Shown piece by piece: positions 28,188 through 54,822 of a stretch of 57,922 bases of DNA. Position 1 is the first letter of the stretch; each line of letters begins with the position of its first letter. The stretch comes from a virus. Position numbers and translations under genes: made by a program. The stretch covers positions 1-57,922 of IMG/VR virus record IMGVR_UViG_3300029787_000044, one strand, 5' to 3'. A model generated the notes under the pieces. The model was not told where the DNA came from and ran no database searches. It saw only the letters and a list, made by a program, of their open reading frames with translations.

Positions 28188-28854
28188 TAACGAAATATAT
28201 TTAGACCAAAGCGGTACTACACTTAATTTAGATATAGAACAACTAGGTATCTCTAACATTATAGGTGGCTTGCAATCTACAGCAGGCAGTCTTACAGCTT
28301 TTGATATTGATGGTACAAGTATGACTATTGATATTAATATGATTGGAAACACTAACAAGTTTCTTGGTGATATATGGGCAGATAGCTTTACTGGTTTTTA
28401 TGAATTCACTGGTAATAGCAATACTTTTACAATACAAGTTGACCCAAGTAACACCTTTGGTGCTGACAGTTCTAATCAAAATATAGCTGTTACTGGATCA
28501 AGTAATACTTTTACTTTAAATCAAGGTACTACTGCATTAGCAGGAACTTTAGATTTAGATTGGATTATTCAAGGTTCTAACAACACAGTTGTATCTAATA
28601 TTAATATTGATGGTGCAACTAACTATATGGATATAGATGGTTCTGATAATACAGTTAATTATACTGGAACAGGAGTAACAGCTTCAGCAGGCGGATATTT
28701 TTGGCTAGATCACACAGGTGGACAAAGAACATTTAATATTCAACAACTGAGTACACAAGATAATGACTGGCTTAAAGTTATATCGGTTGGCGGGAACGCT
28801 GCTTCTACTGTTTGTATTATTCAAAACGACCAAGGTACAAGCACAAGCTGCTGA
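28123..28854 (+). CDS. Curlin-like secreted repeat protein
   Basis: 243 residues with a Sec signal (MKNLKLMSLIVMLSALPTFA-AD); a start at 28141 would keep a shorter signal. The mature part is rich in N, T, D, G and I with irregular repeats such as IYLDQSGTTLNLDIEQLG, GNSNTFTI, GSSNTFTLNQG, GSNNTVV and GSDNTVNYTG, a beta-solenoid pattern like curlin repeats (Q-x-G-x-x-N). It ends VCIIQNDQGTSTSC with two cysteines. Placed after csgG, it is the obvious export substrate, in the role of CsgA or CsgB. The classic S-x5-QxGxGNxA repeat is degenerate, so amyloid formation is inference. Overlaps csgG by 65 bases. Confidence 0.75.
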   Translation: MKNLKLMSLIVMLSALPTFAADNEIYLDQSGTTLNLDIEQLGISNIIGGLQSTAGSLTAFDIDGTSMTIDINMIGNTNKFLGDIWADSFTGFYEFTGNSNTFTIQVDPSNTFGADSSNQNIAVTGSSNTFTLNQGTTALAGTLDLDWIIQGSNNTVVSNINIDGATNYMDIDGSDNTVNYTGTGVTASAGGYFWLDHTGGQRTFNIQQLSTQDNDWLKVISVGGNAASTVCIIQNDQGTSTSC

Positions 28855-29881
28855 TATTGGGGATATATCTGAACTAAATGGTTCAGCGCAAATAGTAAGA
28901 GATGAGCCTTTAGACGCTACTTTAAAGTTTGCTATTCAAAGCAATGATGAAGCTATTACTACTAACGGTAGAATGGCTATAACTTTTCTTGATGATTCTA
29001 CAGTTAAACTAACTGAACACTCACAACTTTTAATAGATGAATATATCTATGATCCCGATCCTTCTAAAGCTAAAATGGCACTTACGTTTGGACTCGGTAC
29101 AGCTCGATTTATTACGGGTAATTTAAACAAAATAGATAAACAAAATATATCTTTAAAAACACCTACAGCAAACATAGCGATTCGTGGGACAGATTTCACG
29201 GCTACCGTTGACGAGCTAGGACGTTCACTTATTATTTTACTCCCCGATTCTTTTGGGTTGTCTAGCGGGGAAATAGAAGTGGTTACTGCTATGGGTAGCG
29301 TATTACTTAATAAACCTTATCAAGCCACAACAGTAAGTGTTTTTGAATCTAAGCCCAGTAAACCTGTTGTATTAGATTTAACTTTAGACATTATAGACAA
29401 CATGTTAATTGTTACGCCTCCTAAAGAAGAAATCACTCAAACAGAAGAAGTAGCAAGTAATACAAAAGCTAACATATTAGATTTTAATGATCTTGATATA
29501 GACTATTTAGATGAAGACTTTTTTGCTGAAGATGAATTAGAGTTTACAGAATTAGATATAAATTATTTAGATGTAAATTTTCTTGAAGATCTATTAAATA
29601 TATTAGACTCATTAGCGATTTCGGAAGATGAAGACGTTTTAGCAGATGCAGGCAGCATAACTCTTAGCGGAACTAAAATAGGACAAGACCCAGACACACA
29701 AATAACCACCTTAGTTACAGGTAATGTAATTAGTCTTAGACGAAAAGTAAATGATTCAGTTAGATTAGACTTAGACAGTGGTGGAGCATACACAGTTATT
29801 ATTATTCAAGATGGAGTTAGTAATGTAGTAAAAATAAATGGTGGTGGCGATTCTAATATAACCATAACGCAAAGTGAATAA
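28763..29881 (+). CDS. FecR-domain protein with curlin-like tail
   Basis: 372 residues. Signal peptide 1-28 (AGTLLLLFVLFKTTKVQAQA). FecR domain about 35-165: NGSAQIVRDE, TNGRMAITFLDDSTVKLTEH, KTPTANIAIRGTDFTATVDE. A very acidic segment (about 230-290) has DIDYLDEDF/DINYLDVNF repeats. The last 50 residues (RLDLDSGGAYTVIIIQDG, then VVKINGGGDSNITITQ) look like curlin repeat units. FecR domains act in the periplasm as sensors or bind extracellular polymers. The tail suggests contact with, or co-export of, the curlin-like protein. The start and whole signal peptide lie inside the previous gene (92-base overlap). Confidence 0.85.
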   Translation: MTGLKLYRLAGTLLLLFVLFKTTKVQAQAADIGDISELNGSAQIVRDEPLDATLKFAIQSNDEAITTNGRMAITFLDDSTVKLTEHSQLLIDEYIYDPDPSKAKMALTFGLGTARFITGNLNKIDKQNISLKTPTANIAIRGTDFTATVDELGRSLIILLPDSFGLSSGEIEVVTAMGSVLLNKPYQATTVSVFESKPSKPVVLDLTLDIIDNMLIVTPPKEEITQTEEVASNTKANILDFNDLDIDYLDEDFFAEDELEFTELDINYLDVNFLEDLLNILDSLAISEDEDVLADAGSITLSGTKIGQDPDTQITTLVTGNVISLRRKVNDSVRLDLDSGGAYTVIIIQDGVSNVVKINGGGDSNITITQSE

Positions 29882-31610
29882 ACTTTTATTACCTATATTA
29901 ATATTACTTAGTTTACCTTTGGTGTTTCAAAGCACGCCAACAGAAATACTTAAATTAAAAACTTTTGATAGTTTAATTAAACAACAAGAGCCCAGTGGTA
30001 ATTTTGTAATACTTAACATTACAGAAGAAGATATAGAACGTGAAGGTGGATATCCTTTACCTAGAACAAGATTAGCTGATATCCAAATAGAATTATTAAG
30101 TAAAGGTGCTATAGGTGTTGGTTGGGTAATTAGTTTTCCGCAAGCGGATAGGTTAGATGGAGATAAAGATTTTGCTAGGTCACTGGGCTACGCTCCTGCA
30201 GTTCTTGCAATGTTTGAAGACGGTAAAGGCATTTATCCTGCTAGTCCAGGAACAGTAGTTTTAGGTGAAAACACAGGAGGTATTAACAGTTCGGGAGTGA
30301 AAGCTAATCACACATCATATGATGATGTTCTGCAGGGATTAGCTATAGCTCCCACCGATGTAGATTTACTTGTAAGAAGAATGCCTTTGTTAGTAAAAAC
30401 TCCTAATAACGAATGGATACCTAGTTTTGGTACACAAATATATAAAGCTTTGTTTGGTATAAAAACATATATTATCAAAACTAACGAAAACGGTATACAG
30501 GAAATAGCGATACGCGGAATACCGCCTGTTAAAACAGATAGTTTAGGTCGTAAATGGATTTCATGGGTTAATACACAACAAACAGATTTACAAGAAATGG
30601 AAGTAAACGGTAAATTTGTTATAGTAGGTGTAACAGCTAATGGGGTTATGCCACAGATAGCCACGCCTATTGGACTTGTTGAGCCGCATAAAATACAAAC
30701 GGCTCTTGCAGAATCTATCCTAATACAAGATAGTCCTTACATACCTGATTATTCTTTAGCTTTAGAACTTCTTATATATTTAGTTTCTGTAAGCCTCGTA
30801 TGGGCTTTTATAAGCTATTTAGGGATAACTTGGGGTATTTCTCTAGCTTTAATTACGATGGCTTTAACGGGCTTCTACGGTTATTACACAATAACTACAG
30901 GAATCCTTATAGATATAACTTGGTCGTTAGTCTCACAATTTATAACAGGAGCTATAGCTTTTTATTTAAGGTTTAGAGAACAATATAAATTAAGACAACA
31001 GATTAAAAAACAGTTTGAACATTACTTAGATCCTAGACAAGTAAAACGTTTACAAAAAGACCCTGATTTATTAAAACTAGGTGGAGAAAAAAGAAGATGT
31101 ACTTTCTTGTTCACAGACGTTAGAGGATTTACAGCTCTTTCTGAAACGTTACCTCCTGAAGAAGTTACTGAAATAATGAATAAAGCATTAACTGTTCAAG
31201 TTGAGTGTGTACAAAAAAGAGGAGGCATGGTAGATAAATTCATTGGTGACGCAATGATGGCTATCTTTAATGCACCTATGGATTTAGAACAACACGAAGA
31301 ACTAGCGGTTCAATGCGCTAAAGAAATACAAGAAAATATAAATAAAGCAAACATTGGAATAGCTATTGGGGTTGGGGTTAATACTGGAGAAGCTGTGATA
31401 GGCAACATGGGCAGTGACACTAGATTCGATTATTCGGCTATTGGGGATGCGGTTAATACGGCGGCTAGGCTAGAGTCTGCTACTAAAGAAGCAGGTGTAA
31501 ACATACTTATTGGAGAAGAAACTAAGAAATATTGTGGTATTTCCTTAAAACGATTAAAACCTATAAAAGTAAAAGGTAAAGAAAAACCTTTAAAAATATA
31601 CACGTTTTGA
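29874..31610 (+). CDS. CHASE2-domain class III adenylate cyclase
   Basis: 578 residues. N-terminal membrane segment (LLLPILILLSLPLVF), a periplasmic CHASE2 sensor about 25-285 (IDIV-type NITEEDIEREGGYPLPR, FVIVGVTANGV), three membrane segments about 295-365, then a cytoplasmic cyclase domain about 395-578. Catalytic residues are present: metal-binding Asp415 (LFTDVRGFT) and Asp459, base-contacting Lys455 (VDKFIGD), Ser in DYSAIGD, and Asn528/Arg532 (VNTAARLE). It should make cAMP on a periplasmic signal. It overlaps fecR by eight bases. A full membrane signalling cyclase is very unusual in a phage. Confidence 0.92.
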   Translation: MNKLLLPILILLSLPLVFQSTPTEILKLKTFDSLIKQQEPSGNFVILNITEEDIEREGGYPLPRTRLADIQIELLSKGAIGVGWVISFPQADRLDGDKDFARSLGYAPAVLAMFEDGKGIYPASPGTVVLGENTGGINSSGVKANHTSYDDVLQGLAIAPTDVDLLVRRMPLLVKTPNNEWIPSFGTQIYKALFGIKTYIIKTNENGIQEIAIRGIPPVKTDSLGRKWISWVNTQQTDLQEMEVNGKFVIVGVTANGVMPQIATPIGLVEPHKIQTALAESILIQDSPYIPDYSLALELLIYLVSVSLVWAFISYLGITWGISLALITMALTGFYGYYTITTGILIDITWSLVSQFITGAIAFYLRFREQYKLRQQIKKQFEHYLDPRQVKRLQKDPDLLKLGGEKRRCTFLFTDVRGFTALSETLPPEEVTEIMNKALTVQVECVQKRGGMVDKFIGDAMMAIFNAPMDLEQHEELAVQCAKEIQENINKANIGIAIGVGVNTGEAVIGNMGSDTRFDYSAIGDAVNTAARLESATKEAGVNILIGEETKKYCGISLKRLKPIKVKGKEKPLKIYTF

Positions 31611-40790: not shown

Positions 40791-41441
40791 ATGGATGCAA
40801 ATGCAAAATTAACAGGAATACAACAGTTGCCGATGGGACAACAAATGGCTGGCGGACCCCCTATGAGAGGTAAACCCCCAATGGCACCTCCAATGGCACC
40901 TCCAATGACTAAACCCCCTATGGGACCTGCAACTCCACCACCCCCTATGTCCCCTCCAATGGGTGAACCTGAGATGATGGCAATGGATGAACCTGAAATG
41001 AACCCACAACAAGACGCAGCTATGTTAGCAGAAGCTGTTGTAGATAAAACACGTGGTAATGTAGAAGCAGCAATAACCCTATTAGACACTTCTAAGGCTA
41101 TGTTGATGCAAGCTACAGGCGGTGGTCAAGATCCTATGATGGCTAATATGGGAGGACCTTTAATGATGAATCAGGGCGGACCTTTAAAGGCTGTCCCTAG
41201 TAATAATAAAGGATTAAGTAAACTTCCCCAAAACGTTAGGAACAAAATGGGTTTTATGAACATGGGTGGACCTTTGTATCGTGAAGATGGAGGAACTATG
41301 TCTGATACAGATATATTACGTCAAATGATTATGGATAGTTTAGCTGATTCAGGCAGAACTATGTCTGATAAAGATATGTCAGGTAGAACTATGTCTAATG
41401 TTGATGCTTTAAACACTCTTATGAATTATAAAATGAGTTAA
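40791..41441 (+). CDS. Pro/Met-rich virion-region protein
   Basis: 216 residues. Residues 20-70 are made of PPM units (KPPMAPPMAPPMTKPPMGP). Then comes a helix NVEAAITLLDTSKAMLMQA and GGPL repeats (MGGPLMMNQGGPLK, NMGGPLYREDGG). The end has repeated RTMSDKDMSGRTMSN. Similar MGGPL-repeat proteins end structural modules in marine phages. The function is unknown. Its 3' end overlaps the converging helicase gene by four bases. Confidence 0.7.
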   Translation: MDANAKLTGIQQLPMGQQMAGGPPMRGKPPMAPPMAPPMTKPPMGPATPPPPMSPPMGEPEMMAMDEPEMNPQQDAAMLAEAVVDKTRGNVEAAITLLDTSKAMLMQATGGGQDPMMANMGGPLMMNQGGPLKAVPSNNKGLSKLPQNVRNKMGFMNMGGPLYREDGGTMSDTDILRQMIMDSLADSGRTMSDKDMSGRTMSNVDALNTLMNYKMS

Positions 41442-42880
41442 CCTATCCAGTCTTTCCACTTCTCGTCGCCTAGTACCTCTTGTGCTAGGTCAAGTTTGTT
41501 TCTAAGAGCCTTAACGATCTTTTCATCTACGGTGCCTTTAGCAACAAGATCTATATAAGTTACTTTATTAGTTTGACCTATACGATGAGCACGGTCTTCA
41601 GACTGTAAGCGTTTTTCAAGGTCGTAGTTATTGCTGTAATAAATAACATTACTTGCTTCCGTAAGAGTAATACCATAGCCACCTGTTTGTGTGTTACTTA
41701 TTAAGTATTTTAATTCTGAATTAGGATCTTGAAAACGTCTAATTATTTCTTGTCTATCTTCGTCAGGAGTTTCTCCGTAGTAAGTAGCAACGCTTTCTAC
41801 CCCTGTTATGTCATGAAGTTTCTTTAGAATTCTTTTTATATCGTATTGGTAGTTAGCCCATATAATAGTTTTACCCTGTACTTCTTGTAAAATATTAATT
41901 AATTCATCGAGACGGTTACTTGGTATTTCTACTTCGTCGCCTTGGTCTTGTCTAACAAATCCACAGACGACTTGATGCAGTCTTAATATTTGAGTAAGCA
42001 CTGAAGTTACACTAACTAGTTCATGCGAAGCAAGCTCTGCTATCGCGTAGTCTTTTAATTGTTTATAAACTTTCTTTTGTTCTGTTGTTAGTTCCACTTC
42101 CCTACGTTGATAAACTTTATCAGGCAGGTCTAAACATTCTTTCTTTAATACCCTGTAAGAAAAGTCTGCAACGCGTCCTGTTAGTTCTTCTAAATTTTGA
42201 TATCCTACTACTTGTCTAAAAGTTCTAGCCCCCATGTTCCTATTGATTACTTTTGCGTACCTGTTTTGGAAAGAGTAAAAAGAATTAAACCCTATAAGAT
42301 CTGTGGATAAAAAAGCACTTTGACTATATAAATCTAACGGTGATTGAGTAACAGGGAATCCTGTTAGTATCCTGCGATATTTAGTGTTCAAAGCTAACTT
42401 CAGTAAGTTCTTAGTTCTTTGTGCTTTAGGGTTTTTTATTGTAGTTGATTCATCTACAGCTATTAGCACATTATGAGCAAGAATAAATTTTTCTACAAAA
42501 GCTACGCCTTTCTTAGTACTGAAAGCTTCTACATTAATAACTAATATTTTTAAATCATCTGTTACTTCGAACAATTTCATTAGTTCATGTTTTTGTTTTT
42601 TAGTGGGAGCAGGATTCCATACGGCTATTTGTTTTTCTATATGGTCAGGCATGTGTGCAGGTATTTCTTTTTCAGACCAGTTTCTGTATACGCCTTTAGG
42701 TGCTATGATGATAGCTGAGTTGATGCCGCCTTTATCATAAAGCACAGAAATGTTATCTATCAATACTTTAGATTTACCAGTACCCATTTCCATAAAATAA
42801 GCATATTCTTTTTTATTCCATGATTTAGTTAACGCCGTCAACTGATGCTCATATGGTTTTGTTTTAAACTTATATTTCAT
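41438..42880 (-). CDS. SNF2-family DEAD-like helicase/ATPase
   Basis: 480 residues, the only minus-strand gene. Walker A MGTGKSK (Gly33-Ser37), motif II VDESTTIKN, motif III RILTGFPVTQS, motif V LISNTQTGGYGITLTEAS and motif VI RAHRIGQTNKV; the RxHRIGQ box is the SNF2 hallmark. It is compact, lacking large insertions, like the SNF2-type helicases of many phages that act in replication or recombination. It converges on the structural genes and diverges from the replication genes, with its own promoter at 42906-42933. Confidence 0.92.
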   Translation of the reverse strand: MKYKFKTKPYEHQLTALTKSWNKKEYAYFMEMGTGKSKVLIDNISVLYDKGGINSAIIIAPKGVYRNWSEKEIPAHMPDHIEKQIAVWNPAPTKKQKHELMKLFEVTDDLKILVINVEAFSTKKGVAFVEKFILAHNVLIAVDESTTIKNPKAQRTKNLLKLALNTKYRRILTGFPVTQSPLDLYSQSAFLSTDLIGFNSFYSFQNRYAKVINRNMGARTFRQVVGYQNLEELTGRVADFSYRVLKKECLDLPDKVYQRREVELTTEQKKVYKQLKDYAIAELASHELVSVTSVLTQILRLHQVVCGFVRQDQGDEVEIPSNRLDELINILQEVQGKTIIWANYQYDIKRILKKLHDITGVESVATYYGETPDEDRQEIIRRFQDPNSELKYLISNTQTGGYGITLTEASNVIYYSNNYDLEKRLQSEDRAHRIGQTNKVTYIDLVAKGTVDEKIVKALRNKLDLAQEVLGDEKWKDWIG

Positions 42881-43183: not shown

Positions 43184-43510
43184 GTGACAGTATATGTTGT
43201 ACAAGAAGTTCCAGGACGCAATATAGCCTCTGCTAGACAGTATGGTGATTTTGAAGTTCTTTTACCTTCTAACACACAAATAATGTTAAGTGCTGCTCCG
43301 TCTGTTCGTAGAATGAAAAAAGTTCTACAGGACTATAAAGAGGAGGATTACTTATTGTTAATCGGCGACCCCGCCGCTATTGGCGTAGCGTGTTCTATCG
43401 CTGCATATTATAACCAAGGAAGATATAGTATCCTTAAATGGGATAGACAGGAAGGTATGTACTACCCTGTCGATATCGACCTTAACCAGAAAGGAGAAAT
43501 AAATGACTAA
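43184..43510 (+). CDS. Conserved early phage protein, unknown
   Basis: 108 residues, GTG start with AAAGGAGAAA. The segment DYLLLIGDPAAIGVACSIAA followed by YSILKWDRQEGMYYPV is highly typical of small early proteins in T7-like and marine podoviruses; function unknown to me. First gene of the replication operon; overlaps the next by eight bases. Confidence 0.85.
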   Translation: MTVYVVQEVPGRNIASARQYGDFEVLLPSNTQIMLSAAPSVRRMKKVLQDYKEEDYLLLIGDPAAIGVACSIAAYYNQGRYSILKWDRQEGMYYPVDIDLNQKGEIND

Positions 43511-44075
43511 ACCAACTTTTGAGGACTTAATAGGTACAGAAGATGTTCAGGAATGGACTAATGATGTAACCGATGGAGAACTCAGTATAGTTTCCAACTT
43601 AGCCAATAAACAGTTAAAGCTTGCTACTGAAGTAGCTGAGCTAGAAGCTAGTTTGAAAGCTAAGAAGGAAGAACTTCGTTTGACTTCGGAGCAAGAGCTA
43701 CCTGATGCTATGCAACAGGCAGGATTAACTCAAATAAAATTAAGTAGTGGAGAAAACATATCTATTAATGAATTTTATAACGCTCATATATCGAAAGCAA
43801 ACCAAGAAAAAGCGTATGGATGGCTAGTTGCTAATGGTCACGAAGGACTAATAAAGAACGAGGTTCTTTTAAAGTTCGGACGTGAGGAAACTGGAGTAGT
43901 TGATGAAACTGTTTCGGCGTTACAATCCAGAGGACTATCACCTGAAGTACGTCAGAGTGTTCACCCTAGTACACTAAAAGCTTTTGTTAAAGAGCAGTTT
44001 ACTACGGGGAATGATATACCAACCGAGCCTTTTGGTATTTACATCGGTACCAAAGCTATTATTAAAAAGGATTAA
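43503..44075 (+). CDS. Conserved early phage protein, coiled coil
   Basis: 190 residues. A coiled coil at about 35-65 (LATEVAELEASLKAKKEEL), then SSGENISINEFYNAHISKA, WLVANGHEGLIKNEV, and VHPSTLKAFVKEQFTTG. This arrangement recurs in marine phages directly before the next gene. The function is unknown; a partner of the single-strand-binding candidate is possible from context. Confidence 0.8.
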   Translation: MTKPTFEDLIGTEDVQEWTNDVTDGELSIVSNLANKQLKLATEVAELEASLKAKKEELRLTSEQELPDAMQQAGLTQIKLSSGENISINEFYNAHISKANQEKAYGWLVANGHEGLIKNEVLLKFGREETGVVDETVSALQSRGLSPEVRQSVHPSTLKAFVKEQFTTGNDIPTEPFGIYIGTKAIIKKD

Positions 44076-44079
44076 TATT

Positions 44080-44829
44080 ATGGCAGATGACAAAAATGAA
44101 ATAGCTGAACAAGGTTCTACCTCTATCAGCACTTTTGACGATACTTTATTGTCAGGCGGTACAGGTTTAGAAGAAACTACTACAGAGGATTTCGCGATCC
44201 CTTTTATTAGAGTCTTACAACCTATGTCACCACAACTACAAAAACAACACGGAGGCTATGTAGCAGGTGCTAGTGCAGGTGATCTGTACAACACTGTTAC
44301 TGGAGAAGCTTACGATGGTGAGAAAGGAATAATCATAGTTCCATGTGCTTATAATAAAAAGTACATTGAATGGATTCCTAGAGAAAAAGGTGGCGGACTT
44401 GTAAACGCTAACCATGATATATCTGTATTATCTAGTTGTACTAGAGACTCAGAGTCTAGAAGGTATTACACACCTGAGGGTAATGAGATAGTAGAGACGG
44501 CACAATTCTTTATCTTAGTGTTAGATGGCGAAACTGCACAACAAGCAGTTCTTGCATTTACTTCAACACAGTTAGGAGTTGCTAGAAAATGGCTAACCAT
44601 GTTAAGAATGGCTAGGGTACAAAACAGCAAAGGAGAGTCTGTAGAAGCTCCTATGTTCGCATATAACTATAAACTAACCACAACTACTCAGTCTAATGAT
44701 AAAGGCAGTTGGAACGCTTATAGTGTTAACCAAGCAGGTGCTACAGATATGGCTACGGCTATGATGGCTAAAGATTTTATGTCTGCAGCTAGATCAGGCG
44801 ATGTCGCGGTAAAAGAAGAACAGCAATAA
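44080..44829 (+). CDS. Conserved early protein, possible DNA-binding
   Basis: 249 residues from ATG 44080; the frame is open further 5' in the previous gene. DFAIPFIRVLQPMSPQL, then GDLYNTVTGEAY and IIIVPCAYNKKYIEWIPR, with VLAFTSTQLGVARKW, form a beta-rich protein family common near phage primases and recombinases. A single-strand DNA-binding or recombination-mediator role is a guess from context. The acidic C-terminal stretch is short (VKEEQQ). Confidence 0.75.
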   Translation: MADDKNEIAEQGSTSISTFDDTLLSGGTGLEETTTEDFAIPFIRVLQPMSPQLQKQHGGYVAGASAGDLYNTVTGEAYDGEKGIIIVPCAYNKKYIEWIPREKGGGLVNANHDISVLSSCTRDSESRRYYTPEGNEIVETAQFFILVLDGETAQQAVLAFTSTQLGVARKWLTMLRMARVQNSKGESVEAPMFAYNYKLTTTTQSNDKGSWNAYSVNQAGATDMATAMMAKDFMSAARSGDVAVKEEQQ

Positions 44830-44840
44830 GGGAGTAACCT

Positions 44841-46364
44841 ATGTCGTTAGCAGAGAATTTTGCTAAACGCTATGCGGGATTACGCTCAGCTTATGGAACT
44901 TTTACGGCAAGTAATGACACCAGAGAAGATGGCAAGGCAAGTGGTAAAAACATAACAATATCCAAGGAGTTGTCTGATAAAGACCTCCTTGGACTGTGGG
45001 AAAATCACTTGTCTGGTCAGCAAAGCGTAGGGATCGTAGCGATAGATGAGACAAACAGTTGTGTTTGGGGAGCTATCGATGTTGATGAGTATCAGCTCGA
45101 CCTTAAAGACTTAGCTATAAAAATAGCCAAACAAGAATTACCTCTTGTACTTTGCCGTAGTAAAAGTGGAGGAGCTCATCTATATATATTTCTTAATGAG
45201 CCTATTGCTGCTTCTATGTTACAAAGAAAACTAAGACAAATAGCCGCATCAATCGGATACGGGCAAGCAGAAATATTTCCAAAACAAACTAAACTATTAC
45301 TAGACAGAGGAGACAGAGGAAGTACATTAAACATGCCATATTTTGGTGGAGAAAACTCTACTAGATATGCTTACGGTAAAGAAGGAGAAGCACTAAGCCC
45401 ACAAGAATTTTTAAACTATATAGAAACTATAGAACTAACACCTAATCAATTAGAAAAACTAGAAGCAAGTCCGTTAACTGAGTCAGTCGAATGGTTAGAC
45501 CAAGCTCCGCCTTGTATCCAACATTTAATAGTGCAGGGTTTTCCTAAAGGCACGAGAAACTCAGGTTTGTTTAATGTAGGAGTTTTCTTACGTAAGAAGT
45601 TTCCTGACGATTGGGAAAAACGATTAGAAGATGTTAATATTCAATACATGCAACCCCCATTAGGAGCACAAGAAGTTTTAACGATAGGTAAACAGTTACA
45701 AAGAAAAGATTATTTCTATAAATGTAATGACCAACCTATAGCTAGTCACTGCAATAGTCCGTTATGTAGAACACGTAAGTTTGGTATTGGTGCTAACGGT
45801 GGCACACCTTTATTTAGTAACTTAACAAAACAAGACAGCGATCCCCCTATATGGTTTTTAGATGTTGAGGGAGGACGTTTAGAATTAGAGACAGATGATC
45901 TACTAAACCAAAATAGATTTCAGCGTAAATGTATGGACGCTTTAAACAAGATACCACCTAAAGTAAAAGAAAATGTGTGGCGTCAGATTATACAACAGTT
46001 ACTCGATGTTATCACTATTGTAGAAGTTCCTATGGAAAGTTCTACTGAAGGACATTTTATGGAGCTGTTGGAAGCTTTTTGCACAGAAAGACCTGCTAGA
46101 GAAAGAGACGAATTATTATTACATAAACCTTGGACAGACAAAGGCAGGACTTACTTTAGGTTATTAGATTTAATGGATTATTTACATAGAAATAATTTTA
46201 AAGAGTATCAAAGAAATAAACTAACATCAAAATTAAAACAGCTTCACGGAGAACCTTATTTTTTCAACATAAAAGGCAAAGGGGTAAACGTGTGGTTTAT
46301 AGAAGAATTTAAAACCCAAGACGAACCTCACGACTTACCTGATTTTAATGATAATTTATTATGA
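44841..46364 (+). CDS. Archaeo-eukaryotic-type primase (TOTE-like)
   Basis: 507 residues. The N-terminal half shows the AEP active site: Asp80 and Asp82 in GAIDVDEY, then CRSKSGGAHLYIFL with His113, and STLNMPYFGG. The order and wording match the primase domain of TOTE-type systems. The middle (APPCIQHL, GTRNSGLFNVGVFLRKKFP) and a Cys-rich part (YKCNDQPIASHCNSPLCRT) resemble the zinc-binding C-terminal domain of phage primases. It would make primers for DNA polymerase I (52954-54822). ATGA overlap with the next gene. Confidence 0.82.
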   Translation: MSLAENFAKRYAGLRSAYGTFTASNDTREDGKASGKNITISKELSDKDLLGLWENHLSGQQSVGIVAIDETNSCVWGAIDVDEYQLDLKDLAIKIAKQELPLVLCRSKSGGAHLYIFLNEPIAASMLQRKLRQIAASIGYGQAEIFPKQTKLLLDRGDRGSTLNMPYFGGENSTRYAYGKEGEALSPQEFLNYIETIELTPNQLEKLEASPLTESVEWLDQAPPCIQHLIVQGFPKGTRNSGLFNVGVFLRKKFPDDWEKRLEDVNIQYMQPPLGAQEVLTIGKQLQRKDYFYKCNDQPIASHCNSPLCRTRKFGIGANGGTPLFSNLTKQDSDPPIWFLDVEGGRLELETDDLLNQNRFQRKCMDALNKIPPKVKENVWRQIIQQLLDVITIVEVPMESSTEGHFMELLEAFCTERPARERDELLLHKPWTDKGRTYFRLLDLMDYLHRNNFKEYQRNKLTSKLKQLHGEPYFFNIKGKGVNVWFIEEFKTQDEPHDLPDFNDNLL

Positions 46365-46945
46365 TAAGATACATTAAAAAATATTTTAAAGAAATTAATC
46401 CGTACATAGAAGAGTGGGATAAGCCTAGAGAAAGAGAGTTCAATGGCTCTATGGTTAAAGGCAGACCTACGAAAGGGTTTGGCAGTTCTTCTTTTAACTA
46501 TGCAGGTAAATTGTATAAACCCACACCATGGACTCCTGCCATGTACAATCTTAAACAAGAAGCAGAACGTTTAGTTTGGGAGGAGTTAGGTATCGACAAA
46601 CAGTTCACGTTTTGTTTATGCGGTTACTATGGGGTAGACGGAAAAGGCATACCGCATCACTCAGATACAGTACCTACACTAGATGACATAGTGGTTTCAA
46701 TATCGTTAGGTGCTCCTAGAGTATTTGTACAACGCACCTATCAAAACAATGTAAAAACACATACGGACACTAGCGAAATAGAAACTAAAATAGAGAATTT
46801 TATAATAGATGAAAAACATTATATTTTAGAGGACGGAGATGTACTTATTTTTGATGGGCATAATCAAATGAAGTCTACCCACGCCGTACCTGATTTAGAA
46901 AAAGCAGGAACAAGAATCAATTTAACTTTTAGGAGTGGTTTGTGA
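46361..46945 (+). CDS. AlkB-like 2-oxoglutarate/Fe(II) dioxygenase
   Basis: 194 residues. Iron ligands His100 and Asp102 (IPHHSDTV) and distal His174 (KSTHAVP); 2-oxoglutarate-binding RINLTFR (Arg185, Asn187, Arg191). FNYAGKLYKPTPWTPAM is the substrate-lid region of AlkB. It repairs methylated bases or, less likely, oxidises DNA bases as a modification step. It lies between primase and helicase genes with four-base overlaps on both sides. Confidence 0.88.
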   Translation: MIRYIKKYFKEINPYIEEWDKPREREFNGSMVKGRPTKGFGSSSFNYAGKLYKPTPWTPAMYNLKQEAERLVWEELGIDKQFTFCLCGYYGVDGKGIPHHSDTVPTLDDIVVSISLGAPRVFVQRTYQNNVKTHTDTSEIETKIENFIIDEKHYILEDGDVLIFDGHNQMKSTHAVPDLEKAGTRINLTFRSGL

Positions 46946-48503: not shown

Positions 48504-49004
48504 ATGAACATATTTTATTTTAACAAAGACCCTGAGGTTTCTGCTAAAGCACAACCTGACAAGATGTTAGTCAAAATGCCTTTAGAAACCGCACAGATGT
48601 TATGCACAGCTCATCGTATATTAGATGGAGACGAGTATGCAGACGAAGTTGGTTTATATAAAAAAGCTTACATGAACCATCCGTGCACTATATGGGCTAG
48701 AGAATGCAGTGGTAATTACTGGTGGCTCTATAAACATTTTTTAGCGTTAGGTAATGAATATACTTATCGCTACAATCGTAATCACCTTAGTTTGGATAAA
48801 CTAGCTGATGCCTTATACGTGATGCCTAAAAACATTACTAAAGGTCTTATGACCGACGTAGCACAAGCTATGCCTGATGAGTACAAAAACGAGGACTCTA
48901 CTCTCGCTTACCGTAATTACGTTATCAATGAAAAACATTACGCTAAATGGGAGAAGGGTAGAAATAAACCAAGTTGGTGGGAGGTAAATCAATGTCATCA
49001 ATAA
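48504..49004 (+). CDS. Conserved early protein, unknown (MNIF...TAQML type)
   Basis: 166 residues. MNIFYFNKDPEVSAKA, VKMPLETAQMLCTAHRIL and SGNYWWLYKHFLALGNEYTY, with a KHYAKWEKG C-terminal part, belong to a family common in marine phages. Most relatives I recall have CDKH before VKM; here the place reads PDKM, so a possible metal or catalytic Cys/His pair is missing. First gene of the second early operon. Confidence 0.8.
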   Translation: MNIFYFNKDPEVSAKAQPDKMLVKMPLETAQMLCTAHRILDGDEYADEVGLYKKAYMNHPCTIWARECSGNYWWLYKHFLALGNEYTYRYNRNHLSLDKLADALYVMPKNITKGLMTDVAQAMPDEYKNEDSTLAYRNYVINEKHYAKWEKGRNKPSWWEVNQCHQ

Positions 49005-49843
49005 GAAAGAAACTGCTCGTTAATGAAAACGACAGTAAAAATACTAGAATGGATATAGCTAGTGCGGGTGTATTAGCAAACTGGCGACCTGATGAAATAG
49101 CTCATATGAGCCGTTTCGATAATATAGCTTCTATGTGTATAGAAGAAGCTAAACGATTAGGTAGACCATTAGATACTTTTGAAGTAGGTTGTGGAGAGTG
49201 CTGGACTTTAAGAAATTTGTATAAAGCATATGTCATCAAGAAATCAGATGTCATTAGCTCTTATTATGGTTACGATATAGATCCTGCGTGTGAAATGGAA
49301 AATCCTTTTTGGTCTAATGCAGGTAATCCATTAAAAGACTCTACGTGGTTCAAGAATTTTAATGGTGAAATACGTATTCAAGATTTAACGACTAATCCTG
49401 TATTTGATTTAAAAGACGAAAGCATCGATTTCTTTTGGACTACTGAAGTTATAGAGCACATGGGTAAAGAGTTTATTTCTGCATGGTTAGATGATGCGGC
49501 TAGGGTTATACGACCTAACGGATTAATTTTTGTTTCTACTCCTAATCATGAAGGCTCTAACGACAAGTTACCTGAAGACCATGTATATGAATGGGGTTTT
49601 AAAGAACTTAAAGATGAATTAGAAAGGAATTTTAAGCTAATAGATGTAACAGGAACGTTTATACAACTTCCTAATTTAAAGAAAGCTATAAAAGAAGACT
49701 CTAATTTTCCTTCAAGAGGATGGAGTTTAGAGCAACTAGAAATGCTTAAAGCTAGGTATGGTAGACAGTTTCTACGTGTAGTAGCAGCAGCACCCTACCC
49801 TGAGTACGCTAATAATTGTTCATGGATATTAAGGAAAAAATAA
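48992..49843 (+). CDS. SAM-dependent methyltransferase
   Basis: 283 residues from ATG 48992 (GGGAGGT upstream). Class I Rossmann signature FEVGCGECWTLRNL (about 64-77), acidic partner YGYDIDP, and TEVIEHMGKEFISAWLDDAA followed by RVIRPNGLIFVSTPNHEG. This is the UbiE/small-molecule or glycan type rather than a DNA adenine or cytosine type, since no DPPY or PC motif is seen. The substrate is unknown. Confidence 0.85.
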   Translation: MSSIRKKLLVNENDSKNTRMDIASAGVLANWRPDEIAHMSRFDNIASMCIEEAKRLGRPLDTFEVGCGECWTLRNLYKAYVIKKSDVISSYYGYDIDPACEMENPFWSNAGNPLKDSTWFKNFNGEIRIQDLTTNPVFDLKDESIDFFWTTEVIEHMGKEFISAWLDDAARVIRPNGLIFVSTPNHEGSNDKLPEDHVYEWGFKELKDELERNFKLIDVTGTFIQLPNLKKAIKEDSNFPSRGWSLEQLEMLKARYGRQFLRVVAAAPYPEYANNCSWILRKK

Positions 49844-49845
49844 TT

Positions 49846-50022
49846 ATGAAACTTAATTTTGAAACGAAAAAACCTAACACCACAGGAATTCAATTTAGAA
49901 TTGATCCAGACACTAAGAAAAAGTTAAATGCTTTGAAAAAGTTTTATGGAGTAGGTACAGGGGTTTTAATTAAACAAATGATTACTGAATGTCATCTTTC
50001 ATTAGCGGACATAGACAAATAA
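49846..50022 (+). CDS. Small ribbon-helix-helix-like regulator
   Basis: 58 residues from ATG 49846 (AAGGAAAA upstream). IQFRIDPDTKKKLNALKKFY followed by GVLIKQMITE matches a short beta strand plus two helices, as in CopG/Arc-type dimers. It probably binds DNA as a phage regulator. Confidence 0.65.
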   Translation: MKLNFETKKPNTTGIQFRIDPDTKKKLNALKKFYGVGTGVLIKQMITECHLSLADIDK

Positions 50023-50024
50023 CC

Positions 50025-50930
50025 ATGTTTATTCAAGAAGAACTGGATCGTTATTGCTATTGGCAAGTAGAACGAGAGAATATACGTCTACAAAAAGAGA
50101 TATCAAAACTCCCGTCTCCGTGGACTGATGATCCAATTCTTCGCGAGTTTAAATTTTGCCAAGTTTTTAGAGAAGACGACAGAACTACTCGATGGTTTAG
50201 AACACATATAAGAGAACCTTTGTATTATTCTCCTGATGTTTTTATGGCTACTATTATATTTCGTTGGTTTAATTTTATAGACACAGGAAGAACTTTGATA
50301 GAACATGATTTATTACTAAACTGGGACAGGAAAAAAGCAATAAATGAAATAACTAAACAACCTAAATGGATAACTGGAGCTTATATCGTTAAAACACCTA
50401 ACGGTATGGATAAAGTTACAGGAGTTTCTGAGTGTATTTCTCATATGTGGAATGATAGAAAAAAGCTAGTTGATAAAATTAGTCAATGCGATTTATTAGA
50501 AGAAACATGGGAACTATTAAGAGATTATCCATACATGGGACCTTTCATGGCTTATGAGGTGGTTACTGATTTAAGGCATACTTATCTATTAGGCAACGCT
50601 AAAGACGTGCTTACATGGGCTAACGCAGGTCCAGGAGCTATGCGAGGATTAAATAGATTAACAGGCAGAGAGCTAGGTTATTCTAAACGTAGCCATGATT
50701 GGGTAGGTGAGATGAGAGCTTTATACAAAGAGGTACAGGCTAAACTTCCTGCTCACATCTTAAATAGAAATGAAATGAACTATGAAATGCGTGAAATAGA
50801 AGGAGGACTTTGTGAGTTTGATAAGTATTCGAGGATACTAAAAGGCGAAGGTAGAACAAGGTCTGTATATAAACCGAATGATCTTCCAATAGTAGAAGAT
50901 TTAATAGAAGGAGAAAGTAAATATGGGTAG
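50025..50930 (+). CDS. hmdU-modification-type protein (HMUDK helical/aGPT-Pplase-like)
   Basis: 301 residues from ATG 50025. REFKFCQVFREDDRTTRWF, RWFNFIDTGRTL, YMGPFMAYEVVTDLRHTYLL and GPGAMRGLNRLTGREL match the helical protein family linked to phage thymine hypermodification (5-hydroxymethyl-dU kinase helical domain / alpha-glutamyl-putrescinyl-thymine pyrophosphorylase-like). A thymidylate-synthase homologue follows at 51237, as in such pathways. The exact reaction is not settled for the family. Start chosen because it directly follows the previous stop. Confidence 0.75.
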   Translation: MFIQEELDRYCYWQVERENIRLQKEISKLPSPWTDDPILREFKFCQVFREDDRTTRWFRTHIREPLYYSPDVFMATIIFRWFNFIDTGRTLIEHDLLLNWDRKKAINEITKQPKWITGAYIVKTPNGMDKVTGVSECISHMWNDRKKLVDKISQCDLLEETWELLRDYPYMGPFMAYEVVTDLRHTYLLGNAKDVLTWANAGPGAMRGLNRLTGRELGYSKRSHDWVGEMRALYKEVQAKLPAHILNRNEMNYEMREIEGGLCEFDKYSRILKGEGRTRSVYKPNDLPIVEDLIEGESKYG

Positions 50931-51144
50931 AGTCAATGAATACTCAGTAGAACTATTAGAAGATTGGGGCGACTCAGTTGATATATATTACACACAATTT
51001 TTAGAGGTAGCATTCTTTTTAAGAGTACCTGCATCACAAGATATGGCTATCGCTTTTGTAAAAAGAAAGCTTCCGCGTCTATCGGAAAGTGAAATAAACT
51101 TTTTAATTGGAGAAATTATAGAGGGCTATCACAGCACTTTATAA
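50923..51144 (+). CDS. Small early protein, unknown
   Basis: 73 residues, helical, overlapping the previous gene by eight bases. It contains SQDMAIAFVKRKLPRLSESE and ends LIGEIIEGYHSTL. No family recognised. Confidence 0.7.
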   Translation: MGRVNEYSVELLEDWGDSVDIYYTQFLEVAFFLRVPASQDMAIAFVKRKLPRLSESEINFLIGEIIEGYHSTL

Positions 51145-51151
51145 GAAAACA

Positions 51152-51250
51152 ATGTTAGAGTATTTAAGTAAATTAATAGACAGATTATTAGAGTTATCGT
51201 TAAAAAGAACTGCTAATAAAATGTCAAGGAGAAAGAATGAAGGTAATTAA
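51152..51250 (+). CDS. Tiny helical peptide
   Basis: 32 residues: MLEYLSKLIDRLLELSLKR and a basic end. It ends inside the next gene (14-base overlap). No clear ribosome binding site, and it is short, so it may be no more than an open frame, but it fills an otherwise unexplained gap in a tightly packed operon. Confidence 0.35.
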   Translation: MLEYLSKLIDRLLELSLKRTANKMSRRKNEGN

Positions 51251-52277
51251 TGCACGAAATGTAAACGACGCTCTACTTTTAGGCATAGATTTATTTAATG
51301 ATAAAACTAATTATAGAGTTCAAGAAAGCCGTAATGGAGATACTTATGAAGCAATAGATCCAGTGACAACTGTTTATAACCATCCTTGGGAAAGGGTTTG
51401 TTTAATAACAGAACGGGACGCTAATCCATTTTTTCATTACATAGAAGGTTTGTGGATGCTAGCAGGACGTAAAGATTTAAAACCATTAACTTTTTTTGTT
51501 AACTCTATGAAAGATTTTTCAGATGATGGCAAAACTTTATGGGGAGCTTATGGTTGGAGATGGAGAGACTACTTCCATAAAGACCAATTAGATATTATTA
51601 TTACTATGTTAAAAACAAATCCTGATGATAGACGTTGTGTTTTGCAGATGTGGGATGCTAATAAAGATTTAAATAGGCAAGGCAAAGATGTTCCTTGTAA
51701 TACTAATATTTATTTTAAAGTTAGAGACAATAGATTGCACATGACTGTTTGTAACAGATCTAACGACATGTTGTGGGGGGCTTATGGAGCTAATGTAGTA
51801 CACATGTCAATGCTTCAGGAGTATATAGCCTCTATGATAGGAGTGTCTATGGGAGTGTACAGGCAGGTTAGTGATAGTTTTCATGTGTACTTAAATCCTG
51901 TTTGGGATAAAGTTAAAGACATAGAAATAGACATATACACTCAACGTGAGGTAAAAAACCCTTACGACAGCTTAGACGAACATGTTGCTTTAATTACTGA
52001 CTGTGATAGTTTTGACAGAGAGTTAAAAAGATTTTTTAATATTAATCCTATGGATTTTGATGTTGTTGATTATGGTTGGCAAAATGCAGCCTTTATTGAC
52101 ATAGCTATACCTATGATGCAATGTTACGCTGCTTACAAAATAGGTGAATTTGATTATGCTTATGAAAAAGCAGGAAATATTAAAGCTCACGATTGGAAAA
52201 AGGCATGTCTCGAATGGATCCGCAAGAGAGAGATGTCACTTATTAATAAAGCGGATATAGGAGGAACTCATGAGTAA
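51237..52277 (+). CDS. Thymidylate synthase/dUMP hydroxymethylase family
   Basis: 346 residues; ribosome binding site AAGGAGAAAG. Family residues: Cys154 as nucleophile (DVPCNTNIYF), then NRSNDMLWGAYGAN with the Arg-Ser and Asp of the substrate loop, and Asn186 where dUMP-specific enzymes have Asn and dCMP enzymes have Asp. SDSFHVYLN is the late substrate-binding segment. The WGAYGWRWR and PCN variants are as in hydroxymethylase-like phage members. It makes dTMP or, given the neighbour at 50025, hydroxymethyl-dUMP. Plain thymidylate synthase remains possible. Confidence 0.85.
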   Translation: MKVINARNVNDALLLGIDLFNDKTNYRVQESRNGDTYEAIDPVTTVYNHPWERVCLITERDANPFFHYIEGLWMLAGRKDLKPLTFFVNSMKDFSDDGKTLWGAYGWRWRDYFHKDQLDIIITMLKTNPDDRRCVLQMWDANKDLNRQGKDVPCNTNIYFKVRDNRLHMTVCNRSNDMLWGAYGANVVHMSMLQEYIASMIGVSMGVYRQVSDSFHVYLNPVWDKVKDIEIDIYTQREVKNPYDSLDEHVALITDCDSFDRELKRFFNINPMDFDVVDYGWQNAAFIDIAIPMMQCYAAYKIGEFDYAYEKAGNIKAHDWKKACLEWIRKREMSLINKADIGGTHE

Positions 52278-52632
52278 ATGGGAAAAAATGAAAGATATCG
52301 CTCAAAACGATTTATCAGCTCTACAAAAAGCTGAGACGTCTTATGGCGACTCTTGGAGACGTCGTGGAGGTGTTGGTGCCTTTATGATGTTAGCACGTAA
52401 ATTCGATAGAATCGAGCATCAGTCGCAAAAGCACGGGTGGGACGTATTCGAGGCAGGTGAAGTCTATGTGGGCGAAGCAGGTCTACTCGATGATATTAGA
52501 GATTTACGTAGATATTTATTATTAGTTGAAGAATACATCTTAGACAACACCGTAACAAAATACGAAGATCTTCCTTATGAAGAAGTTGACGATGTAAATT
52601 ATTCTGCCGAAGATGGCAGAGAGGAGGATTAA
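52270..52632 (+). CDS. Nucleotide-modification-associated-like small protein
   Basis: 120 residues. YGDSWRRRGGVGAFMMLARK, FDRIEHQ and DDIRDLRRYLLLVEEYI form a conserved-looking helical domain common in phages near thymidylate synthase homologues, reminiscent of the DUF1599/Nmad1 and MazG-like helical folds. Acidic C-terminus. Overlaps the synthase gene by eight bases, so a role in the deoxynucleotide pool is likely but unproven. Confidence 0.6.
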   Translation: MSKWEKMKDIAQNDLSALQKAETSYGDSWRRRGGVGAFMMLARKFDRIEHQSQKHGWDVFEAGEVYVGEAGLLDDIRDLRRYLLLVEEYILDNTVTKYEDLPYEEVDDVNYSAEDGREED

Positions 52633-52633
52633 T

Positions 52634-52957
52634 ATGGGATTTTGGGCAAAATTTATTGCGTTTATAACACCACCACCCACTGAAAAGAAAGTGGACGAGG
52701 TTATGAAAGCTAAAGTAATTAAATCAGCTGTACAAACAGCTACAGTAACATTAGATAAATTTGATGATGCTTCTGTTGTTAAAGCAAAACCTAAAAGAGC
52801 TAGAACCAAAAAAGGCACTTACAAAGCCGATAATAAATCTACGCCTGATGTAAATGAGGCTTGGGTAGGTGGTAAAGCTCCGACTAAAAAGAAAAAGACC
52901 ACAACAAAAACGAAGAAGCCTAAAGCTAAAACAGTTAAGGTTACTAAGAAAAAGTGA
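52634..52957 (+). CDS. Lysine-rich early protein
   Basis: 107 residues from ATG 52634, with GAGGAGG upstream. A hydrophobic start (MGFWAKFIAFITPPP), then a basic chain with KPKRARTKKGTYKADNK and a C-terminal tail that is mostly K, T and P. Probably nucleic-acid-binding. It ends in a GTGA overlap with the polymerase gene. Confidence 0.7.
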   Translation: MGFWAKFIAFITPPPTEKKVDEVMKAKVIKSAVQTATVTLDKFDDASVVKAKPKRARTKKGTYKADNKSTPDVNEAWVGGKAPTKKKKTTTKTKKPKAKTVKVTKKK

Positions 52958-54822
52958 TCTTACAACAGCCAATTTTTACTCCTAAAAGCGATTGGTCAGT
53001 ACCTGATGTTTTTCCTCAGTTCTCTGAGACAGAAACAATAGCTATTGATTTAGAAACTTACGATCCGCATCTCATGACTTGCGGTCCTGGATGGGCTACA
53101 AGTCGTGGGCATGTTGTGGGCATAGGAATAGCTACTAAAGATTGGCAAGGTTATTTTCCTATACGTCATTTAGGCGGAGGAAATTTAGATGAAGGTTTAG
53201 TTATACGTTGGTTGACTAACACACTCGCTTCCGAAAAACGGGACGTGGTTTTTCACAATTCACTCTACGATGTAGGGTGGTTAAAAAGAGAAGGTGTTGA
53301 AGTTAAAGGCAGGATATTAGATACCATTGTTGCTGCTCCTCTTGTTAATGAAAATAGATATTCTTATTCTTTAGATAATCTAGGTGAGTTTTACTGCGAT
53401 GAAAAGAAAGATGAGTCTTTGTTACAAGATGCAGCTTTATCTTTTGGAGTTAATCCTAAATCAGAGATGTATAAACTACATTCTAAATATGTTGGACCTT
53501 ATGGTGAGCAAGACGCAGCCTTGACTTTAAAACTTTGGGATAAGTTAAAAGTAGAGATTGCTGAGCAAAACTTAGAACAGATATTAGATATGGAGTGTAG
53601 GCTTATACCTTTGTTATTAGAAATGCGTTGGAGAGGAGTTAGGGTAGATGAAGAAAAAGCAGATACCATAAGCAAACAACTCTCTATGCAAGAGCAAAAG
53701 ATATTGGTGGAGATTAAAAGACAGTATGGTGCTGAAGTAAATCTTTGGGCTAATGCTTCTTTACAGGCTATTTTTGAAAAGAATAAAATCTGGTATCCTA
53801 GAACAGCAAAAGGTATGGCAAGTTTTCAAAAAGAATGGCTAGAAGGACATGAGCATGAATTACCTCAACTTATTGTTAAAGCACGAAAGCTAAATAAAGC
53901 TAGAACGACTTTTATTGATAAGATGATTAAAGACCATTGTTTTAATGGTAGAATACACGCGGAAGCTCATGCTATGCGTAACGATCGTGGTGGCACAGTT
54001 AGTGGCAGGTTCAGTTATAGTAACCCTAATCTACAACAAGTCCCTGCACGCGACCCAGAAATAGGTAATTTGATACGATCTTTATTTATTCCTGAAGAAG
54101 GGTGTCAGTGGGGTGTTTTTGATTATTCACAACAAGAACCTAGACTTACCGTGCATTATGCTGATCAGATGAATTTAAACGGTGCTAAGAATGCAGTTTC
54201 TCAATATAGAGACGATAATGCAGACTTTCACCAAATAGTCGCAGACATGGCTAAAATACCACGTAAACAAGCTAAAACAATTAATTTAGGATTAAGTTAT
54301 GGAATGGGTAAAGAAAAACTTATTAATGAATTAGGCATAGATGATATAGAAGCTGAGAAATTATTTCAGCAGTATCATGCTAACGTGCCTTTTATCCGAG
54401 CTCTACAAGATCAATGTGCAAGAGTAGCAATGGATAGAGGTTATATAAAAACATTTGCAGGTAGGCGTTGCCGTTTCGATCTATGGGAAAGTAGATATGA
54501 ACGCACTCTACCTTTACCTCTTGAAGAGGCAAGAGAAAAATACGGTGATAATTTAAAACGATCATATACTTACAAAGCTCTGAATCGTTTAATCCAAGGC
54601 TCAGCCGCTGACATGACAAAGTTAGCTATGTTGGGTTTATGGGAGGAAGGAATAGTTCCTCACCTACAAGTTCACGATGAAGTTGATATTTCAATAGAGA
54701 ACACTGAACAAGCTAATACAGTAGCCAACATAATGGAAAACTGTGTACAACTTGCAGTTCCCCTATTAGTGGACATGGAACTCGGAAGTTCATGGGGCGA
54801 AACAAAGGACATAAAAAGATGA
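52954..54822 (+). CDS. DNA polymerase I (family A) with 3'-5' exonuclease
   Basis: 622 residues, GTG start. Exonuclease motifs: AIDLETYD (Asp32, Glu34), FHNSLYDVGW and YGEQDAALTL. Polymerase motif A VFDYSQQEPRL (Asp390), motif B RKQAKTINLGLSYGMG (Arg437-Gly452), motif C LQVHDEVD (Asp575). The position equal to E. coli Phe762 is Leu445. The 5'-3' exonuclease domain is absent, as in T7-type enzymes. It is the replicative polymerase, working with the primase and helicases upstream. Confidence 0.95.
   Translation: MILQQPIFTPKSDWSVPDVFPQFSETETIAIDLETYDPHLMTCGPGWATSRGHVVGIGIATKDWQGYFPIRHLGGGNLDEGLVIRWLTNTLASEKRDVVFHNSLYDVGWLKREGVEVKGRILDTIVAAPLVNENRYSYSLDNLGEFYCDEKKDESLLQDAALSFGVNPKSEMYKLHSKYVGPYGEQDAALTLKLWDKLKVEIAEQNLEQILDMECRLIPLLLEMRWRGVRVDEEKADTISKQLSMQEQKILVEIKRQYGAEVNLWANASLQAIFEKNKIWYPRTAKGMASFQKEWLEGHEHELPQLIVKARKLNKARTTFIDKMIKDHCFNGRIHAEAHAMRNDRGGTVSGRFSYSNPNLQQVPARDPEIGNLIRSLFIPEEGCQWGVFDYSQQEPRLTVHYADQMNLNGAKNAVSQYRDDNADFHQIVADMAKIPRKQAKTINLGLSYGMGKEKLINELGIDDIEAEKLFQQYHANVPFIRALQDQCARVAMDRGYIKTFAGRRCRFDLWESRYERTLPLPLEEAREKYGDNLKRSYTYKALNRLIQGSAADMTKLAMLGLWEEGIVPHLQVHDEVDISIENTEQANTVANIMENCVQLAVPLLVDMELGSSWGETKDIKR

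Follow-up and report, generated by a model that had tools for sequence, protein, structure and literature searches.

Organization of the locus

The linear IMG/VR virus record IMGVR_UViG_3300029787_000044 (57,922 bp; referred to here as the window) contains a module composed of a Hen1-like S-adenosylmethionine (SAM)-dependent methyltransferase, an HMUDK_hel protein, a homologue of thymidylate synthase (TS), and a 120-residue protein, followed by a DNA polymerase (Table 1). The gene content suggests a system for thymine replacement and hypermodification in which the methyltransferase takes the place of the 5-hydroxymethyluracil (5hmU) DNA kinase, a reading to which we assign a probability of about 0.5. 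An earlier sequence-only reading had singled out the HMUDK_hel, TS-like, and 120-residue proteins at positions 50025–52632; all three open reading frames (ORFs) are present on the plus strand and are conserved. Given their E-values and their conservation in about 80 contigs, chance is excluded as the source of this three-gene set. Position 50025 is an internal Met13 of the HMUDK_hel ORF, and the conserved start of the methyltransferase ORF is probably Met7, at position 48992.

Table 1. Module genes and the adjoining polymerase gene in the window
Feature	Coordinates	Strand	Family or relatives
Hen1-like SAM-dependent methyltransferase, proposed 5hmU O-methyltransferase	48974..49843	+	Pfam Methyltransf_23/11
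HMUDK_hel protein, proposed 5hmU-DNA recognition partner	49989..50930	+	PF18723
73-residue ORF between HMUDK_hel and hydroxymethylase	50923..51144	+	matches in 53/85 loci
TS-superfamily dUMP-type pyrimidine hydroxymethylase, predicted (D151, C154, N186)	51237..52277	+	phrog_5131
120-residue small protein, perhaps Nmad1-like	52270..52632	+	Pam3_54 and Goe26 relatives
DNA polymerase A family protein, downstream of module	52954..54822	+	matches in 82/85 loci

The window belongs to a clade known largely from metagenomic contigs, and a DNA-level search of the phage collection with the window gave no match. The clade was sampled as 156 loci containing about 75 distinct HMUDK_hel sequences, and the two locus scans overlap in contigs. 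Profile searches for the kinase and the transferase covered 43 contigs, namely the window plus 42 others that encode close relatives of its HMUDK_hel protein, with phages M6 and PaMx11 as controls. Among the matches to the DNA polymerase across the 85 loci of Table 1 are those in M6 and PaMx11, which fall in the region annotated as DNA polymerase. The 73-residue ORF product has no significant family in Pfam and PHROG profile searches.

The TS homologue as a probable dUMP-type hydroxymethylase

The TS homologue matches PF00303 (E = 5e-24) and phrog_5131 (E = 2e-111). As the sequence-only reading had described, it has a PCN motif at the nucleophile (residues 153–155, catalytic Cys154) and an Asn186, which lies within a GANVV stretch. 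Three residues ahead of the catalytic Cys, in D151-V-P-C154, is an Asp, the published signature of hydroxymethylation at a position that is occupied by Leu in thymidylate synthases (PMC6400193). An Asp at the base-recognition site is the mark of dCMP enzymes (PMC6400193), and the window protein has Asn186 where those enzymes carry this specifying Asp, which points to dUMP as the substrate. The combination of D.PCN and Asn at the base-recognition site is found in 156 of 156 clade loci.

The protein fits neither of the two familiar classes of the superfamily. With Asp151 rather than Leu at Cys-3 it departs from canonical thymidylate synthases, and TS equivalog models score well under their cut-offs (TIGR03284, 55.6 bits versus a cut-off of 108.35). 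With respect to T4-type dCMP hydroxymethylases, Asn186 replaces the Asp179 equivalent and Ala104 the Ser94 equivalent, the latter mark being also missing from the CMP 5-hydroxymethylase MilA at the same alignment position. MilA is the best sequence match in the PDB (4e-19), above any thymidylate synthase. The homologue is 46% identical to the enzyme of phage M6, the DNA of which carries 5-NedU, thought to be made via 5-hydroxymethyl-deoxyuridine (5hmdU) (PMC6449724). These features allow the protein to be assigned with considerable confidence as a predicted dUMP-type pyrimidine hydroxymethylase, a reading under which the label "thymidylate synthase" carried by such phage genes is misleading.

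A methyltransferase in place of the kinase and transferase

In M6, PaMx11, and Pam3, the order of genes is transferase, then, further along, a P-loop kinase (PF18748), HMUDK_hel, the TS-like gene, and DNA polymerase; the transferase belongs to PF18724 in M6 and PaMx11 and is annotated as aGPT-Pplase2 in Pam3. The succession of HMUDK_hel, TS-like deoxyuridylate hydroxymethylase, and DNA polymerase in M6 and PaMx11 (Mesyanzhinovviridae) is the same as in the window. These two phages have their own P-loop 5hmU DNA kinase, amino acid:DNA transferase, and further tailoring enzymes, whereas the window clade is without the kinase and the transferase and has the methyltransferase. The P-loop 5hmdU DNA kinase family PF18748 is found in 0 of the 43 clade contigs, and the amino acid:DNA transferase family PF18724 likewise in 0 of 43; both families are found in the M6 and PaMx11 controls, the PF18748 match of PaMx11 being under the cut-off yet clear. 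Among window ORFs of more than 80 residues, a Walker-A pattern is seen only in the UvrD helicase, and no kinase turned up elsewhere in the contig. Glycosyltransferase PF00534 is absent from the window and 15 long relatives; TET-associated glycosyltransferase (TAGT) and other glycosyltransferase families were not searched genome-wide. The absence of both a kinase and a transferase bears out the sequence-only reading, which had seen neither and had suggested that the pathway may be short or different. Because the two defining parts were looked for and not found, the window module falls outside the kinase-dependent M6-type system, which it resembles at the first step.

The methyltransferase gene lies just upstream of the three genes that the sequence-only reading had considered. 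That reading suggested that the set makes hydroxymethyl-dU and adds a decoration to it, for which the inferential support is good; the likely decorating enzyme had been overlooked. In the first set of 81 clade loci, 80 have the methyltransferase, and the exception (L005) is truncated just before HMUDK_hel. Across all 156 loci, the order methyltransferase, HMUDK_hel, TS homologue and the strand are constant, and the median gap is 0. In a wide sample of HMUDK_hel loci, 159 have the methyltransferase only, 81 have the kinase only (61 of them with the transferase as well), and none has both; after clustering at 90% identity, the corresponding numbers are 40, 58, and 0.

In public records, the genes that probably encode the 5hmU DNA kinase in M6 and PaMx11 (L081, 6716–7279; L082, 7393–7962) carry the label "terminase small subunit", probably a spreading misannotation.

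Family and chemistry of the methyltransferase

When the family profile is compared with PDB sequences, the five top matches are Hen1/HENMT1 proteins (best 1.6e-10), and next comes UbiG, which is, like Hen1/HENMT1, an O-methyltransferase. Hen1 binds the metal needed for 2′-O-methylation through the residues of an ExxEH...H motif. This motif is common to the methyltransferase family and to Hen1/HENMT1, its closest solved relatives by sequence profile, and in the alignment the ExxEH and later HxxE of the family fall on the same stretch of Hen1. The ExxEH...HxxE pattern is found in 158 of 158 window-type and 84 of 84 AXL3-type proteins (242 of 242), and Glu158, Glu161, His162, His203, and Glu206 are invariant across 53 aligned methyltransferases. 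An AlphaFold2 model (mean predicted local distance difference test score, pLDDT, of 84.5) confirms a class I fold; the assignment of chemistry is drawn from the sequence profile and the motif, since structural comparison cannot rank the subfamilies.

Window and bacterial Hen1 systems differ in their partners: the Pnkp ligase PF16542 and the RNA ligase PF09414 are found in 0 of 16 records (the window and 15 long relatives), and the window offers instead a context of pyrimidine hydroxymethylation. Since a metal-dependent O-methyltransferase adjoins enzymes that make 5-hydroxymethyl pyrimidines, the hydroxymethyl group is suggested as its acceptor.

In the alignment column of window residue 202, beside the invariant His203, Asp is found in 21 of 21 window-clade proteins and Asn in 32 of 32 AXL3-type proteins. 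This split parallels the uracil/cytosine split of the partner hydroxymethylases.

Related methyltransferases beside other hydroxymethylases

Only five matches to the methyltransferase are found among 50,697 phage records. In the three regions that were inspected, those of AXL3, ct3Et533, and ctUtU524, the order is methyltransferase, NTP pyrophosphohydrolase, P-loop kinase, TS-like hydroxymethylase, and dCMP deaminase, and the published gene table of PW916 lists, in one stretch, a methyltransferase, an NTP pyrophosphohydrolase, a deoxyuridylate hydroxymethyltransferase, and a dCMP deaminase. For comparison, 2,184 of the 50,697 records (4%) have any match to the TS-like protein of the window. 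As in the window, a methyltransferase of this family adjoins a TS-superfamily hydroxymethylase in AXL3, PW916, and ct3Et533; the AXL3-type loci differ in having a dCMP-type hydroxymethylase, with Asp at the base site, and in their NTP pyrophosphohydrolase, P-loop kinase, and dCMP deaminase. When viral contigs are scanned more widely, 75 of 83 loci have a hydroxymethylase near the methyltransferase, nearly all with the dCMP-type Asp, and five of the eight AXL3-type loci that are without a hydroxymethylase run out shortly after the methyltransferase. Only one of the 83 loci contains HMUDK_hel, which argues that it goes with uracil and not with cytosine.

A profile built from the window clade alone recovers all 84 AXL3-type methyltransferases (E-values of 1e-23 to 3e-9); none of the remaining ORFs in those loci is matched. 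In addition, the C-terminal residues Pro276, Asn281, and Trp284, which lie outside the SAM-binding core, are common to the window and AXL3-type proteins. AXL3 genomic DNA resists 35 of 37 restriction enzymes, and the two that cut it have sites made up of A/T only (PMC7504290).

The HMUDK_hel protein

The first of the three proteins had been described as HMUDK-helical/aGPT-Pplase-like. The first half of this description stands, with matches to PF18723 (E = 3e-45, 155 bits versus a cut-off of 25) and phrog_2396 (E = 2e-63). The protein is neither a kinase nor an amino acid transferase, both of which were considered and rejected because it has no P-loop and no match to PF18724. An AlphaFold2 model (pLDDT 92.9), aligned to solved folds with VIA-align, gives a Z-score of 11.2 with the helix-hairpin-helix (HhH) DNA glycosylase 3knt (root mean square deviation, rmsd, of 3.7 over 187 aligned residues) and of 10.8 with the PaMx11 gp46 glycinyltransferase 8z2n (rmsd 4.0, 223 aligned). 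The top structural neighbors are mostly HhH glycosylases, although helical models often reach such Z-scores, and a Foldseek search of the PDB gives no match below 1e-3.

An invariant GPG is found at residues 214–216, and the residues that are invariant in kinase-associated HMUDK_hel copies are retained in the window clade, so the protein is not decaying. In M6, PaMx11, and Pam3, HMUDK_hel is a separate gene that adjoins the kinase gene. Elsewhere, it adjoins glycosyltransferases, two of which are nearest to TAGT (PF20691), or PIG-L deacetylases, without a kinase of the searched family. The HhH-like predicted fold and the varied gene neighbors suggest a protein that recognizes 5hmU DNA and works with interchangeable catalytic partners, in which case the name HMUDK_hel would reflect the first context in which it was found and the protein would be a general reader of 5hmU DNA.

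Nine loci (L223, L225, L232, L234, L244, L246, L247, L249, and L259) contain HMUDK_hel beside glycosyltransferases, PIG-L deacetylases, radical-SAM/SPASM proteins, or FkbM methyltransferases and are without a kinase of the searched family; these are probable further 5hmU decorations. In L261–L292, lone HMUDK_hel homologues occur in Patescibacteria and Bacillota contigs from metagenome-assembled genomes, nearly all without a nearby TS-like gene.

The 120-residue protein

Profile searches that gave firm families for HMUDK_hel and the TS homologue find no Pfam match for the 120-residue protein itself, PF07659 included. It is about 44% identical to Pam3_54, annotated as "nucleotide modification", and about 36% identical to the product of the gene that immediately follows the TS-like gene in Goe26, a phage of the SPO1 group. 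The Goe26 homologue has a weak match, below the cut-off, to PF07659 (nucleotide modification associated domain 1, Nmad1/DUF1599; E = 0.02). Of the earlier label, Nmad/MazG-like, the Nmad part is thus plausible and the MazG part is not borne out: in the alignment of the protein, only an unrelated NTP pyrophosphatase of L090 matched PRA-PH.

Similar to the window, Goe26 encodes a TS-like enzyme with PCN and Asn and then the homologue of the 120-residue protein. It has no HMUDK_hel or methyltransferase annotated in the 6-kb region around the TS-like gene, the wider genome not having been searched. SPO1 replaces thymine by plain 5hmU (PMC6400193; PMC4528723). The Goe26 arrangement ties the pair of TS-like gene and 120-residue protein to 5hmU biology, with no firm activity implied.

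Proposed pathway and alternatives

In the proposed pathway, the active-site residues of the TS-like enzyme indicate that it would convert dUMP to 5-hydroxymethyl-dUMP. Kinases that are not seen in the window, presumably those of the host, would give the triphosphate, and the phage DNA polymerase would incorporate it. HMUDK_hel, to judge from its predicted fold and gene context, would bind the DNA and present the 5hmU base, and the Hen1-like methyltransferase, a metal-dependent SAM enzyme by its active-site motif and context, would methylate the exocyclic hydroxyl to give 5-methoxymethyl-deoxyuridine. The 120-residue protein may adjust the nucleotide pool. The resulting modification would shield the DNA from restriction. 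The confidence differs among these parts: the phage DNA likely contains 5hmU, the methyltransferase probably acts in the 5hmU pathway, and the chances that the product is the 5-methoxymethyl base are about even. A wider generalization, held more tentatively, is that Hen1-related metal-dependent O-methyltransferases decorate both the 5hmU of such phages, with HMUDK_hel presenting the base, and the 5-hydroxymethylcytosine (5hmC) of AXL3-type phages, yielding 5-methoxymethyl-dU and 5-methoxymethyl-dC, respectively. In that case HMUDK_hel would read 5hmU in general, and evolution would have swapped its catalytic partner, be it a kinase, a glycosyltransferase, or a methyltransferase. No mention of 5-methoxymethyl-dU or 5-methoxymethyl-dC as a phage DNA base was found in the literature searched.

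Several observations weigh against this interpretation. The methyltransferase-bearing HMUDK_hel proteins form one clade (Shimodaira-Hasegawa-like approximate likelihood ratio test, SH-aLRT, 99) with one change on the tree, so the exchange of kinase for methyltransferase is a single event and the locus counts are not independent. The contig may be incomplete, which would allow for a distant kinase. The structural Z-scores of the methyltransferase tie many subfamilies, CmoA and CmoM among them, and class I methyltransferases are versatile; for HMUDK_hel, a Z-score of about 11 is only moderate for a mostly helical model. With regard to the AXL3-type proteins, their methyltransferases are only 19–28% identical to that of the window, the loci L349, L354, and L355 are without a hydroxymethylase and not plainly cut short, and 5hmC by itself, or other genes, could account for the resistance of AXL3 DNA.

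The simplest alternative is a phage with plain 5hmU, like SPO1, in which HMUDK_hel is a general hmU-DNA binder or a leftover and the methyltransferase acts elsewhere. The Goe26-like arrangement of the TS-like gene and the small gene that follows it, the replacement of thymine by 5hmU in SPO1, and the lack of a kinase or transferase in the window clade all agree with this idea, but a leftover would not be expected to retain the residues that are invariant in kinase-associated copies, and a methyltransferase from a hydroxymethylase-linked family directly adjoins HMUDK_hel in 156 of 156 loci. We consider it unlikely. More conservative still is the view that the phage DNA contains normal thymine, with the TS homologue being an ordinary thymidylate synthase, given that Asn186 is also the thymidylate synthase residue and that many such genes are annotated in this way. 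The Asp for Leu at Cys-3, the low equivalog scores, the HMUDK_hel partner, and the similarity to the enzyme of a 5-NedU phage make this very improbable.

Two further alternatives concern the reaction that is catalyzed by the methyltransferase. It could be a true Hen1-type RNA enzyme that 2′-O-methylates RNA 3′ ends (for example, of repaired tRNA) against host ribonucleases and shares only an early-gene location with its 5hmU neighbors. The Hen1/HENMT1 profile matches and the common metal motif would be as expected for such an enzyme, but the absence of PF16542 and PF09414 from the window and its 15 long relatives speaks against it, and RNA repair does not predict that the family repeatedly adjoins pyrimidine hydroxymethylases in unrelated phage contigs; this role is doubtful. 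A comparably small chance is given to another SAM-derived donor or another site, such as carboxy-SAM or ring methylation, which would yield a decorated 5hmU other than 5-methoxymethyl-dU. Phages use carboxy-SAM for base modification, as in CmoX (PMC12783734), and comparison of folds alone, with CmoA and CmoM among the tied neighbors, cannot fix the donor or acceptor, whereas the conserved ExxEH...H points to O-methylation.

The known M6-type 5hmU hypermodifications run through a DNA kinase. If the methyltransferase route holds, a widespread viral clade would extend them by a branch of new chemistry, probably with a new DNA base, and by a further way to evade restriction. HMUDK_hel and the AXL3 gp31 family, both unexplained proteins, would thereby gain a role that can be tested. 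AXL3 is in culture.

Other genes of the window

Two genes are found just upstream of the module: an AlkB-like 2-oxoglutarate oxygenase (46361–46945), with matches in 57 of 85 loci, and a pyrimidine-dimer-glycosylase-like protein (phrog_624; 48504–49004), with matches in 40 of 85. Both might act on modified bases. Farther upstream, two genes at 43184–44829 correspond to Pfam families derived from cyanophage Pam3 (gp32 and gp34), which hints at replication genes common to the window and Pam3-like phages. An SNF2-like helicase (41438–42880) is the longest minus-strand gene of the window. At 27315–31610, proteins with CsgG, FecR, and CHASE2 plus guanylate-cyclase domains are clustered, an arrangement in a phage genome that suggests unusual cargo or a foreign insertion.

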